A DNA stretch of 64,000 bases from Terriglobia bacterium (lineage in GTDB: Bacteria; Acidobacteriota; Terriglobia; Bryobacterales; Bryobacteraceae), in contig JAIQFN010000007.1 of assembly GCA_020073265.1 (NCBI GenBank), forward strand, positions 1 to 64,000. Reading direction: 5' to 3'. A model generated the notes under the pieces. That model saw nothing but the letters and a program-made list of their open reading frames with translations. It did no database searches and was not told the DNA's origin. A program made the position numbers and the translations under genes. Positions 19,860 to 24,919 of this stretch are shown piece after piece (position 1 is the first letter of the stretch; each line of letters begins with the position of its first letter).

Positions 19860-20852
19860 ATGAGCTTGCGATCCTTCGGTCTGGTTGTTTGCGTTACAGC
19901 ATTTGCAGCGTTTGCCCAAGCACAGCACTATAAGGCGCCTTTGGCTTCGGATGGGCATCCCGATTTGCAGGGGTTCTGGGCCAACAACAATGCCACACCG
20001 CTCGAACGGCCGAAGGAACTCGCCGACCATCCGGTGCTGACCGACGCTGAAGTGCAGGCGATGCGGAAAAAAAGTGAGGAGATGTTCACCGGGAAGGTGG
20101 ATGCCGCGTTCGGCGATCAAATTTTTCTGACGACTTGGGCGAATGTGAAGGGCCTGAAGGTTGGCTTCAAGAGCACAGACGGTGAGACGGGCGATTACAG
20201 CTCGGAGTGGAACGATCACAGAGTCTGGGATAACCGGACTTCGCTGATTACGGACCCGGCGGATGGACGCACGCCTCCGTTGACCGATCGGGCGAAGAAG
20301 CTGCAGGAAGAGCAGAGGATAGCCCGGCAGCGTCCCGCTCAGGGTCCCGAGGATCGGTCTTTAGGGGAACGCTGTATCTCTCGCGGCTCGCCAGTGATTC
20401 AGGCGGGATACCAGAGCTATTTCCAGATCGTGCAGACGCCCACAGCGGTCATGATCCTGACAGAAATGTTCCACGATGTGCGAGTTATCAGCCTTGACAA
20501 TCAGCCTCATGTGCCGGCGGCGGTGCATGAGTGGATGGGTGATTCGCGCGGGCACTGGGAAGGCAACACCCTGGTGGTCGACACCACGAACTACCGGCCG
20601 CGCGCTTTTCAGGGTATCTCGAGCGAGAAGCTGCACATCACGGAACGATTCGCGCGTCAGGATGCCGAAACGATTCGGTACGAGATTACCGTGAACGACC
20701 CGGACACCTGGACCAAGCCGTGGAGCCTGATGATTCCGCTGCAGCGGTCGGCGCAGCCGGTTTATGAGTATGCTTGCCATGAAGGCAATATCGGCTTAGC
20801 GGGCATACTAGCCGGTGCGCGGGCCGATGAGGCCAAAGCGTTATCGAAGTAG
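19860..20852 (+). CDS. secreted hypothetical protein of the HPDLQGFW family
   Basis: A 330-residue exported protein with a short signal peptide (AAFAQAQ, cleavage near 22). Directly after it comes SDGHPDLQGFW, the hallmark of a large uncharacterised family that is much expanded in Solibacter-like bacteria. The middle contains GYQSYFQIVQTP and RVISLDN, and later WMGDSRGHWEGNTLVVDTTNY and the C-terminal YEYACHEGN, all characteristic of the family. The fold and function are unknown; the WEGxTLVVDT strand suggests a lipocalin-like beta domain. AAGGAG precedes the ATG by about 7 bases. Confidence 0.85.
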   Translation: MSLRSFGLVVCVTAFAAFAQAQHYKAPLASDGHPDLQGFWANNNATPLERPKELADHPVLTDAEVQAMRKKSEEMFTGKVDAAFGDQIFLTTWANVKGLKVGFKSTDGETGDYSSEWNDHRVWDNRTSLITDPADGRTPPLTDRAKKLQEEQRIARQRPAQGPEDRSLGERCISRGSPVIQAGYQSYFQIVQTPTAVMILTEMFHDVRVISLDNQPHVPAAVHEWMGDSRGHWEGNTLVVDTTNYRPRAFQGISSEKLHITERFARQDAETIRYEITVNDPDTWTKPWSLMIPLQRSAQPVYEYACHEGNIGLAGILAGARADEAKALSK

Positions 20853-21000: not shown

Positions 21001-21018
21001 CTTAACCAGTCTGTTAAG
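21001..21018. promoter_or_regulatory. inverted repeat, probable operator of the globin-ArsR gene
   Basis: CTTAAC at 21001-21006 and GTTAAG at 21013-21018 are perfect inverted arms around six bases, 24 bases ahead of the GTG start. The TTAACC/GTTAA arms resemble the palindromes commonly found before ArsR-SRPBCC operons (from memory), which supports autoregulation by the fusion protein. Confidence 0.6.
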
Positions 21019-21042
21019 CGTGAACCGACAGGAGAAGCTTTC

Positions 21043-21594
21043 GTGCTCGATCCGCGACCGTCCCTGTACCTCCGACTCGGCGGATACGATGCTCTCGCGG
21101 CGTTTGTCGACGACCTGCTCTCGCGAGCCATCTCCGATCCGCGGATCGGCGTGTACTGGAAAGGCACGAGCCGGGACAGCCTGCGACGCTCCCGCCAGCT
21201 CGCCCTGGATTTCCTGTGCGCCTCGATGGGAGGACCCGCGATTTATCTCGGCCGCGATATGAAGACGCTGCACGACGGAATGGGAATCAGCGATGCCGAT
21301 TGGGAGGTTCTGATGCGCCACGCCCGGAAGACTCTCACGAGCCTGGCTCAAAGGGAATGCTCCGTCACTGAACTGTGCGAACCGTTCCCAATCTCCGTAC
21401 CCGCCATCTCCAGACATTTGAGGGTTCTTGAAAGCGCCGGCTTGATCACGCGAAGGAAAGCCGGACGGGTGCACTACTGCCGCATGCGACCGAATGAGTT
21501 GCAGCACGCCGCGGACTGGATGGTTCAGCAGCGTGCGTTCTGGTATCAGCAGCTCGATTCGCTGGCTCGGTACCTCGACGAGGAGGAGCCATGA
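21043..21594 (+). CDS. truncated hemoglobin fused to an ArsR-type winged-helix regulator
   Basis: A 183-residue fusion. Residues about 7-98 are a group I-like truncated hemoglobin: SLYLRLGGYDALAAFVDDL, DPRIGVYWKGT, FLCASMGGPAIYLGRDM, and the proximal heme histidine H77 in KTLHDGMGI. The distal tyrosine of helix B is replaced by leucine and the last globin helix is missing. From about 101 the chain is an ArsR winged helix: AQRECSVTELCEPF, recognition helix VPAISRHLRVLE, wing GLITRRKAGRVHYCRM, and the C-terminal AFWYQQLDSLARYLDE helix. The usual first ArsR helix is absent, so the globin replaces it in frame. GTG at 21043 follows AGGAG by 8 bases. It overlaps the SRPBCC gene by ATGA. I infer a heme or gas-responsive repressor; a degenerate fusion is possible. 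Confidence 0.85.
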   Translation: MLDPRPSLYLRLGGYDALAAFVDDLLSRAISDPRIGVYWKGTSRDSLRRSRQLALDFLCASMGGPAIYLGRDMKTLHDGMGISDADWEVLMRHARKTLTSLAQRECSVTELCEPFPISVPAISRHLRVLESAGLITRRKAGRVHYCRMRPNELQHAADWMVQQRAFWYQQLDSLARYLDEEEP

Positions 21595-22046
21595 TCCCGG
21601 GGGCGATCGCGGTGTCCCAAGGGATTACGCTGCGCCTGTGCCGCCGGTTTCCGCGAACTCCGGAAGCGGTATTTCGCGCGTGGACGAATCCCGATAACAT
21701 TCGCCTCTGGTGGATCCCTGCTGGTTGGACTCCAGCCGAAATGGAAGTCGATCTCCGTGTCAGCGGCAGTTACCGCCTGGGGATGCGCCGCATCGAGGGC
21801 GGAGACACGGTGTACGTGCACGGCCGATTCCTTGAGGTGTGCGTGCCCCAGAAGCTGATATACACCTGGAAGTGGGAAAACGCATTTGAACAGATGCTGG
21901 AGACCCAGGTGACGGTGAGCTTCATCGAATGGGAAGGTGGAACTGAGCTGGAGCTCATCCATGAAGCATTGCCGGAAGTCTCGATCTGCCTCCGTGTACG
22001 GGCCGGCTGGCTGGATGCCTGGCAACGCTTGAAGAAGGTTCTATAG
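21591..22046 (+). CDS. SRPBCC/AHSA1-family protein
   Basis: A 151-residue START-like protein with the family pattern: RRFPRTPEAVFRAWTNPDNIRLWW at the start, a GGSYRLG-like strand (SGSYRLGMRR), VYVHGRFLEVCVPQKLIYTWKW, and a closing amphipathic helix (GWLDAWQRLKKVL). These proteins bind hydrophobic ligands in a deep cavity and are very often the partner of an ArsR regulator, as here, where the genes overlap by four bases. It probably modulates or is controlled by the fused regulator; the ligand is unknown. Confidence 0.9.
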   Translation: MIPGAIAVSQGITLRLCRRFPRTPEAVFRAWTNPDNIRLWWIPAGWTPAEMEVDLRVSGSYRLGMRRIEGGDTVYVHGRFLEVCVPQKLIYTWKWENAFEQMLETQVTVSFIEWEGGTELELIHEALPEVSICLRVRAGWLDAWQRLKKVL

Positions 22047-22061
22047 AAAGGATCATGAACG

Positions 22062-23300
22062 ATGAAAGTTAGCTATCAGGTTGTTGCGTCCGTCTTGGTT
22101 GCCGCGGGGTTGGCCGGCGGTCTTGTGGCGCTTCCTCGAAAGGCGGCCGCGCAAAACGCCCCCCAGGGCGCGACAACGGCTCAGATCCCCACGGGCAGGC
22201 AGGGCCGGGGCGGATATCCGTTGCCGCCGCTACCAGCGGACTTTGAGACGTATCAGCACAAGGTGCGCGTATCCGTGGTCGCGCGCGGGCTCGACCGGCC
22301 GTGGAGTCTGATGATGATGCCGAATGACGACATGCTCATCAGCATGCGCTTCTCCAATCAGATCCGTCTGATTCATGACGGTGTGCTCGATCCCAAGCCC
22401 GTGTCGGGACTGCCGGAGGTGCGCCGTCTGTTCGATATCGTCACGCATCCGAAGTTCGCCGAGAACAAGTGGGTGTATTTCGACTACTTGAAGCCGGGCA
22501 CCGAGGCACGTAGTCCGCTGGCGCTTGCGCGCGCGGTATACGAAAACGGCCAGCTCAAGAACGTCCAGGAGTTATACGTGAGCGATCCCGTCACACAGGG
22601 GGCCTCACGCATGGCCTTCGCGCCCGATGGGACCATCTACATCACGGTTAGCGGCGCCGGAGGCCGGATTCCGAATGGGCCGGATCCGCGCAAGCTCGAT
22701 ACGGTTTACGGAAAAGTGATCCGGCTGCGCGAGGACGGCTCGATTCCTCCCGACAATCCATTTGTCGGAAAGGCCGGCGCGCGTCCGGAGATCTTTTCAC
22801 TGGGCCATCGCGATCACTTTGGACTCGCGCCGCATCCTCAAACCGGGCAGATGTTCCACGTCGAGATGGGGCCCTACGGCGGAGACAAAATCAACATCCT
22901 GAAGGCAGGTGGCGACTACGGTTGGCCGGATTACAGCTACGGCCGCCAGAACGACTCGTCGCCGCTGCCCGATCCGCACAATGTGCCGGGCATCGAGCAG
23001 GCGCTGCTGGTCTGGCTACCGGGCATCACGCCGTCGGGTTTGTTGTTCTACACGGGCGACAAGTTTCCTGCCTGGAAAGGCAACTTGATGGTCGGCAGCG
23101 TGGTGACCGGCCGCGTGAATGGATCAAGCGGAGTCGAGCGTGTCGTGTTCAACAACAAGATGTGGGAGACGCGCCGCGAAATGTTCCTGACGGAACTCAA
23201 GCAGCGCATTCGCGACGTCCGCCAGGGCCGCGACGGATTGATTTATCTGCTAACCGAAGAGGTCGATGGCGCAGTGCTCAAGCTCGAGCCGGCGGACTAG
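22062..23300 (+). CDS. PQQ-dependent sugar dehydrogenase (soluble aldose/sorbosone dehydrogenase type)
   Basis: A 412-residue periplasmic enzyme with a signal peptide (ends ALPRKAAAQ near 31). The six-bladed propeller carries the family markers RGLDRPWSLMMMPNDDMLIS near 78, a GASRMAFAPDGTIYITV blade, SLGHRDHFGLAPHP with the catalytic histidine near 250, and GGDYGWPDYSYG near 284. These enzymes oxidise aldoses with PQQ and calcium. The gene starts 15 bases after the SRPBCC stop on the same strand, so it is probably the third gene of the globin-ArsR operon and a likely regulated target. Confidence 0.9.
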   Translation: MKVSYQVVASVLVAAGLAGGLVALPRKAAAQNAPQGATTAQIPTGRQGRGGYPLPPLPADFETYQHKVRVSVVARGLDRPWSLMMMPNDDMLISMRFSNQIRLIHDGVLDPKPVSGLPEVRRLFDIVTHPKFAENKWVYFDYLKPGTEARSPLALARAVYENGQLKNVQELYVSDPVTQGASRMAFAPDGTIYITVSGAGGRIPNGPDPRKLDTVYGKVIRLREDGSIPPDNPFVGKAGARPEIFSLGHRDHFGLAPHPQTGQMFHVEMGPYGGDKINILKAGGDYGWPDYSYGRQNDSSPLPDPHNVPGIEQALLVWLPGITPSGLLFYTGDKFPAWKGNLMVGSVVTGRVNGSSGVERVVFNNKMWETRREMFLTELKQRIRDVRQGRDGLIYLLTEEVDGAVLKLEPAD

Positions 23301-24110: not shown

Positions 24111-24292
24111 AGGCTGGTCCGTGATCGCGATTGGTCTCCGCTATGTGAGCGCCCTGAAGTGGATCACCCGGACGCTGCTCTGTGACCAACGGCGCCGGTG
24201 ATTGTGGAGTCCACGGTGCTAGCGATTCTGGGTGCGCAGCAGAACAGAGCCTCCGCCAGCCGGTGGTCGAAGTGCGCCGTATGCCCAACATG

Positions 24293-24306
24293 CCATACTA
24301 GTATGG
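24293..24306. promoter_or_regulatory. palindrome covering the vapB start codon
   Basis: CCATACTAGTATGG is a perfect 14-base palindrome; its last ATG is the vapB start. A second perfect palindrome AAGTATACTT lies at 24310-24319. Autoregulation of the toxin-antitoxin operon by binding over the start is inferred. Confidence 0.55.
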
Positions 24307-24539
24307 TAAAAGTATACTTACCTGTGAAGAAGACCTTCAACCTCGATGAGGACCTCTTCAGCAGCGCCAAGGCGGCTTGCGGCGCCACCACCGATACGGA
24401 GACGGTTCGTCTCGGTCTGGAGGCCTTGGTGCGCCACGCGGCCTACCAGCGTCTTCGCGCTCTTCGTGGAACAAAGCCTCGCGCGCGCGACGTACCCAGA
24501 CGTCGTGAGAGGCCGTCGACAAAACGCGGGGCGCACTGA
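24303..24539 (+). CDS. VapB-type antitoxin (ribbon-helix-helix, DUF2191-like)
   Basis: A 78-residue protein with a predicted ribbon-helix-helix start (KTFNLDEDLFSSAKAACGATTDTETVRLGLEALVRH) and a basic, disordered tail that would neutralise the toxin. Its TGA shares a base with the toxin's ATG. The ATG at 24303 lies within a 14-base palindrome and has no strong ribosome binding site, which suggests leaderless or weak translation; a longer upstream reading has no family support. Confidence 0.85.
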   Translation: MVKVYLPVKKTFNLDEDLFSSAKAACGATTDTETVRLGLEALVRHAAYQRLRALRGTKPRARDVPRRRERPSTKRGAH

Positions 24540-24919
24540 TGGTCCTGGTTGATACCTCTGTGTGGATTCGGTTTCTTGCCAATCGTCCGCCGTACGCGAG
24601 TGAGCTGGATCGGTTGCTGGATCTCGATGAAGTAACCGGACATGAATTGGTTTATGGAGAACTCCTGATCGGCGATCGCGGGGGGCGCAGGAAGCTTCTG
24701 GAGTCCTACGAAAAGATGGACCAGGCGCGCCTCGTTCCACACCGCGAGGTCGTCGGGTTCGTTCGCGATCGAGGTTTGTCGGGGCGCGGCGTAGGCTGGA
24801 TCGACATTCACCTCCTCGCCTCGGCTGTGGTTGAGCGAGTGAGTCTGTGGACAGCCGATCCACGTTTCGCTGCGGTTGCAAAAAAGCTCGGCGTTGCCTA
24901 TCAGATGTCGACCTTATGA
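24539..24919 (+). CDS. VapC-type PIN-domain toxin
   Basis: A 126-residue PIN ribonuclease with D5 in VLVDTSVWI, the glutamate in LVYGELLIGD near 41, the aspartate in GWIDIHLLAS near 91, and the aspartate in LWTADPRFAAVAKKL near 109, the full acidic set of VapC toxins. It directly follows its antitoxin and is probably regulated through the palindromes at 24293-24319. It is a different subfamily from the VapC at 11734. Confidence 0.92.
   Translation: MVLVDTSVWIRFLANRPPYASELDRLLDLDEVTGHELVYGELLIGDRGGRRKLLESYEKMDQARLVPHREVVGFVRDRGLSGRGVGWIDIHLLASAVVERVSLWTADPRFAAVAKKLGVAYQMSTL

Follow-up and report, generated by a model that had tools for sequence, protein, structure and literature searches.

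Described globin chimeras and the fused gene

Truncated globins are widespread, and many of them have no known role. The accessible part of one source gives the chimeric globins as flavohemoglobins and globin-coupled sensors (PMC1457004), and the accessible part of another describes both globin-coupled DNA-binding regulators and a fusion of nitrate reductase with a truncated hemoglobin (PMC3820574). The gene analyzed here resembles the globin-coupled sensors in the principle of coupling a heme globin to an output domain (PMC3820574; PMC1457004, each in excerpt); however, those sensors use 3/3 globins, whereas the globin of our fusion matches the truncated (2/2) family. A 2/2 globin-like fold within a transcription factor, as in the fusion, is presented for MabR (Rv2242, PucR family), but in the excerpt available the globin-like domain of MabR is non-heme and is accompanied by a GGDEF-like domain and another HTH (PMC11617747). 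The globin also occurs as a fused domain in the nitrate reductase NR2-2/2HbN of raphidophytes (PMC3820574, in excerpt) and in a Synechococcus NOS, whose globin class is not named in the excerpt available (PMC6104048), but both of these proteins are enzymes and do not bind DNA. ArsR and truncated hemoglobin are both mentioned, although not joined, in the excerpt of PMC11218638. No fusion of a truncated globin to ArsR or to a LuxR-type domain was found in the open-licence literature searched, which is not proof of absence.

The closest counterparts of the two halves are the group 1 truncated hemoglobins (PF01152; e.g., M. tuberculosis HbN and Shewanella benthica proteins of solved structure) and the ArsR/SmtB regulators encoded beside SRPBCC/AHSA1 genes. 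With the former, the fusion shares the family, the G13-G14 and GGP motifs and a proximal-type histidine; with the latter, it shares the winged helix, the recognition helix, TTAACC-GGTTAA operators and the adjoining AHSA1 gene. Unlike group 1 truncated hemoglobins, the fusion lacks helix H and its chain runs into the winged helix; unlike ArsR/SmtB proteins, it lacks alpha-1 and carries a globin at its N-terminus.

The fused gene lies at 21043..21594 on the forward strand of the window, by which we mean the whole stretch of 64,000 nucleotides that was analyzed. It starts with GTG, comprises 183 codons with zero internal stops, and is preceded by a likely ribosome-binding site (AGGAG at 21030..21034, forward strand, identified by eye). 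According to the Pfam matches and the alignment, the globin-derived part covers approximately residues 1-98 (21043..21336, forward strand), contains the proximal-type histidine H77 and is devoid of helix H. The ArsR-derived part, delimited by Pfam, NCBIfam, the alignment and the models, covers approximately residues 99-183 (21337..21591, forward strand), is devoid of alpha-1 and includes a recognition helix at residues 119-131, a wing at residues 135-148 and a C-terminal helix from approximately residue 150. The first-pass annotation had described this frame of 183 residues as a globin joined to an ArsR regulator, and both domains indeed scored above curated cut-offs. Bac_globin (PF01152) matched residues 7-110 (3.4e-9; 37.4 bits against a gathering score of 21), HTH_5 (ArsR) matched residues 98-136 (3.2e-11; 43.4 bits against a cut-off of 22), and the NCBIfam model HTH_metalloreg reached 62.3 bits against a cut-off of 55 (2.7e-17), while the fusion missed the cut-off of the SdpR autorepressor model (NF033789; 42.4 against 100). 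PF01152 was the sole globin family matched up to E = 1, and the protoglobin family was not among the Pfam matches of the fusion. A mis-called or chance frame was considered and ruled out, because each half matches a curated family and shares 48-63% identity with the unfused relatives.

The assignment to a group I-like globin with H77 in KTLHDGMGI, also proposed in the first-pass annotation, was borne out as well. H77, G13, G14 and the G63-G64-P65 motif are all invariant in a 9-row globin alignment, and the solved structures best matching profile A1, built from the globin part of the window and 8 relatives, are group 1 truncated hemoglobins (4.1e-20, compared with 2.5e-4 for HbO). Judged by the alignment, the globin half is nevertheless a globin-derived domain and not a complete truncated hemoglobin, because helix H, and with it the 2/2 fold of helix pairs B/E and G/H, is missing. 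In the ArsR half, inspection by eye revealed two cysteines, C106 and C112, which occur singly in some relatives and jointly in no other row of the ArsR alignment. The globin-ArsR pairing is apparently a new domain combination whose unfused arrangement is visible in relatives.

Unfused operons and the shared helix

In the sample of 200 genomes from the family of the window, two genomes matched the halves of the fusion separately and side by side among the matches listed. One, labelled a Terriglobia bacterium MAG, is here called G092 (JAENWC010000393.1, loci L038 and L044), and the other, labelled an Acidobacteria bacterium MAG, is called G187 (JACQZR010000309.1, loci L039 and L048). Both carry the gene order globin (133 amino acids), arsR and AHSA1/SRPBCC, tightly packed on one strand, with the Pfam-assigned AHSA1 gene in the same position. 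The globin half of the fusion is 63% identical to that of G092 over 105 residues and 48% identical to that of G187 over 128 residues, and the ArsR half is 59% identical to both. The comparison of these sequences showed that the fused gene unites, in frame, the counterparts of the operon's first two genes.

Alignment with G092 and G187 located the joint at approximately residues 97-101. The fusion tracks the unfused globin to approximately residue 98, the end of helix G, and the unfused ArsR from approximately residues 97-101, in alpha-2, with an ARKTLTSL stretch at the joint that can be read as either parent. The fusion has neither globin helix H nor the N-terminal region of ArsR that includes alpha-1, and zero residues separate globin helix G from ArsR alpha-2. 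A single helix at residues 84-103 (21292..21351, forward strand) is shared by the two domains, with globin helix G continuous with alpha-2, as indicated by the alignment and by low-confidence models. The earlier proposal that the last globin helix and the first ArsR helix are gone and that one helix is common to both domains is therefore supported by two unfused relatives. A hand count from the coordinates gave 218 nucleotides missing from the fusion relative to G092 and 191 relative to G187, and a single in-frame deletion of about 190-220 nucleotides between adjacent genes would be the simplest account of the fusion. It is very improbable that the frame arose instead as an assembly artefact, by the collapse of reads from two adjacent genes: although the draft assembly comprises 131 contigs, the join keeps both the reading frame and the helix register, the operon continues on both sides with the operator before and the SRPBCC gene after, and no long collapse-prone repeat was seen by eye at the joint in the relatives.

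Structure prediction of the 183-residue chain, as suggested in the first-pass annotation, yielded one helix at residues 84-103 in both of two AlphaFold models, but the models are of low confidence (mean pLDDT 59.6 and 66.4; pTM 0.49 and 0.45). In both, residues 119-131 form the recognition helix, the wing has two strands and the C-terminal helix is long, and the predicted helices agree with the alignment on the absence of helix H; residues 68-82, around H77, have a pLDDT under 50 in the second model. A Foldseek search with the first model matched ArsR structures and trHbN. In the VIA structure comparison with the second model, most rows start at residues 86-92, and several ArsR/winged-helix chains start at residues 14-24 (e.g., 2oqg_C, 3f6v, 7p6f_AAA and 1sfx_A; rmsd 3.9-6.1), of which 2oqg_C covers 101 residues at an rmsd of 3.9. 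The VIA list was filled by winged helices, so the absence of globins from its rows means nothing. That globin helix B might stand where ArsR alpha-1 belongs is only a lead from these models.

Such an arrangement is part of a rather doubtful alternative, according to which the protein is a working ArsR autorepressor with a globin half that binds no heme, senses nothing and serves as a scaffold, for instance by replacing alpha-1 at the dimer interface. The early-starting winged-helix chains, the retained recognition helix and operator, the loss of helix H and the poor prediction of helix F would all fit this account; however, the structural hint comes from a low-confidence model in which most VIA rows start only in the shared helix, and the globin half retains H77 together with 33 of 35 conserved columns.

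The operator and the genes around the fusion

An inverted repeat, CTTAAC-N6-GTTAAG, spans 21001-21018 and ends 24 bases before the GTG. The window contains a single copy of the pattern TTAACN6GTTAA, compared with 0.01 on average in shuffled sequences. Sites upstream of the globin start were found in all three operons, namely TTAACCAGTCTGTTAA in the window (21002..21017, no strand assigned), TTAACCATCTGGTTAA in G092 and TTAACCAAATGGTAAA in G187, and they differ from the pattern TTAACCA-N2-TGGTTAA at 2, 0 and 1 positions, respectively. This pattern was picked by eye from all three sites and equals the site of G092, so the later tests were not wholly blind. With two mismatches allowed, it occurs once in the window against 0.02 expected. 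The repeat and the position of the operator described in the first-pass annotation thus hold and recur in two unfused operons, but its 6-6-6 architecture is better described as 7-2-7.

Across the 6.4-Mb genome of the window, allowing at most two mismatches gave 4 places with the pattern, each of which reads on both strands and 1 of which lies before the fusion, against 6 for the reversed control; the motif is therefore not enriched, and it is the position that counts. We then considered 25 ArsR loci, which remained after six duplicates and the loci with less than 150 nucleotides upstream had been dropped. In 15 of them, a site with no more than three mismatches lay within 160 nucleotides upstream of arsR, compared with 2 of 327 control stretches from the same loci. 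The 10 loci lacking it comprise two entries for each of the three globin operons (six in all), in which the site precedes the globin, together with L125, L168, L004 and L167. The site hence looks like a general feature of the ArsR-SRPBCC kind, as far as these upstream sequences indicate. At eight loci (L026, L027, L028, L031, L033, L034, L036 and L037), two operator-like copies lie 16 bp apart upstream of arsR; such tandem copies are absent from the three globin operons.

A scan of the window for consensus sigma-70 promoters and terminators found nothing, while TTGACA was seen by eye before the operator in both unfused relatives. Downstream, a 151-amino-acid SRPBCC/AHSA1 protein (21591..22046, forward strand; PF08327, 3.3e-23) is encoded by a frame that overlaps the stop of the fusion by ATGA. 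This overlap had been pointed out earlier, and the SRPBCC partner is present in both relatives as well. A glucose/sorbosone dehydrogenase (GSDH) gene follows 15 nucleotides after it (22062..23300, forward strand, from its open reading frame and Pfam match) and may be co-transcribed with the fusion operon. The first-pass annotation had counted this PQQ sugar dehydrogenase as a part of the system, but we rejected it as a conserved partner: in G187 the SRPBCC gene is followed by a cupin-like secreted protein, recognized by eye from its translation, and the contig of G092 ends after the SRPBCC gene.

Two observations concern the wider surroundings. At 24198-24919 of the window, a small gene precedes a PIN-domain gene (PF01850, 1.4e-11), and the pair looks like a VapBC-type toxin-antitoxin system, with the antitoxin labelled by eye. 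The gene preceding the fusion (19860-20852) encodes a 330-amino-acid protein, one or two relatives of which (38% and 34% identity) are encoded beside an ArsR gene elsewhere in the same genome (L004, 1438-3181), possibly by coincidence.

Distribution, conservation and proposed function

The first-pass annotation had called for an architecture search for a globin and an HTH in one protein, and this search gave no second globin-ArsR fusion in the genomes covered. None was present among the matches listed for the family sample (200 genomes, E 1e-8), in the 257 genomes of the order (E 1e-24), a set not marked as a sample, or in the class (399) and phylum (396) samples (E 1e-26 each); these sets overlap, and scoring was limited to the top candidates of each genome (e.g., 8 of 22). 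Four genomes of the same genus had zero matches at the cut-off of the order search (E 1e-24). A first scan of genome contigs with the whole fusion as the query found nothing. A later scan gave 450 globin relatives, and among the best 80 of these, ArsR occurred within the 3-kb flanks only in L044 and L048, the operons of G092 and G187; when 135 globin-bearing loci (with duplicates) were screened for ArsR/SRPBCC at higher sensitivity, one more, distant ArsR emerged, approximately 1.6 kb from the globin (L081). In three further loci (L125, L128 and L139), an ArsR is present but the stretch examined has no globin match. A plasmid match over 85% of the fusion query proved to be an ordinary ArsR-SRPBCC pair and not a fusion, and viral contigs contained zero globin relatives and two ArsR relatives. 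Within its own genome, which had 9 matched places, the fusion alone covered both halves, and the rest were ArsR genes and a separate globin. The latter (L003, 1399-1842) is a truncated globin of 147 amino acids whose N-terminus is signal-like.

A quick tree was built from 48 of the 121 globins. In it, the globins of the three operons group together (SH-aLRT 86) and are joined next by L047 (labelled Chloroflexi) and L049 (labelled Gammaproteobacteria; SH-aLRT 92), and then by L045 and L046 (both labelled Chloroflexi) and the long-branched L054 (labelled Acidobacteria; SH-aLRT 87). Just upstream of a separate globin gene, L045 (1921-2535) and L046 (1551-2165) each encode a 205-amino-acid protein in which Bac_globin is joined to GerE (LuxR-type), with both domains above cut-off. 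These proteins resemble the fusion of the window in that a globin of a near clade is joined to an HTH, but they carry another HTH, and their globin is near full length (PF01152 matched to position 113 or 119 of 121) with the joint placed after it. The frame upstream of the globin contains GerE behind a short N-terminus in L047 and L049; L054 had no GerE match, and L091 and L133 had weaker GerE matches on the other strand. Among 147 relatives of the L046 genome, only L046's own genome and that of L047 matched at E values up to 1e-25, the latter via its globins. It seems that globins of this group of close relatives became fused to an HTH on at least two occasions, and that the HTHs differed.

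Of 35 globin columns conserved in at least 85% of the other sequences, 2 are changed in the fusion (L29A and F38Y), compared with 4 in L044 and 3 in L048 (113 of 121 globins kept, some of them duplicates). The fusion differs at 1 of 26 conserved ArsR columns, as do L044 and L048 (19 ArsRs, after three long-branch rows had been dropped), and its codon-position G+C resembles that of the neighboring genes. Branch lengths for the globin are 0.54-0.61 in the fusion, 0.12-0.16 in L044 and 0.37-0.49 in L048; those for ArsR are 0.38-0.43 in the fusion and 0.26-0.28 in both relatives. In the ArsR tree, the ArsRs of the three operons are not resolved as one clade, and L125, which has no adjoining globin match, joins the ArsR of L048 with a support of 80. 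The conservation may predate the fusion, and because a close unfused sister is lacking, selection that acted before the fusion cannot be separated from selection after it.

These data also bear on a rather doubtful account in which a recent in-frame deletion wrecked both proteins and decay has not yet set in. Structural helices are gone from both domains, the fusion was found in one genome with a joint that cannot be dated, its globin branch is longer, and the promoter-like sequence appeared weaker by eye than those of the relatives. Against a broken gene speak the intact frame, start, ribosome-binding site, operator and ATGA coupling, the few conserved sites that have changed, an ArsR branch that is only moderately longer, and an SRPBCC branch (0.59) that lies between those of L044 (0.63) and L048 (0.42).

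The reading that we prefer, to which we give slightly less than an even chance, is that the fusion is a lineage-specific one-component autoregulator that probably senses heme. As a dimer, the ArsR half would occupy the TTAACCA-N2-TGGTTAA site upstream of its own gene and repress both the fusion gene and the SRPBCC gene. H77 would anchor heme in the globin half, and the shared helix would transmit a change at this heme (O2, NO, CO, redox state or heme supply) so that the DNA is released; in the unfused operons, separate globin and ArsR proteins would act as partners. We favor the autoregulator because both domains exceed their cut-offs in one frame, two unfused operons have the same gene order, and the operator stands at the same place in all three operons, and also because few conserved columns have changed, the G+C is like that of the neighbors, and globin kin lie beside GerE frames or in GerE fusions. 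We doubt it because it is represented by a single genome, has lost helix H and alpha-1, which are normally structural, and yields models of low confidence, and because of the longer globin branch, the unresolved ArsR clade, the failure to find a consensus promoter and the lack of a GerE match at L054.

A bolder and unlikely extension would make the fusion a new sensor construction, in which two operon proteins have become one heme switch through a shared helix. Globin helix B would replace alpha-1 and helix G would be alpha-2, so that the ligand would act directly on the dimer and DNA surface without a linker, and the truncated globins of this clade would serve as subunits of regulators, having been fused to ArsR and, independently, to LuxR-type HTH domains.

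Collectively, the globin-repressor operon, its single-protein relative and the globin-LuxR kin point to signalling as a role for truncated globins. Such a role is directly testable with one small protein, one 16-bp operator and two readouts, a heme spectrum and a gel shift. If the fusion works, it would be a candidate gas or heme switch, and, if this is true, it would be a fused sensor whose unfused two-gene arrangement is still visible.
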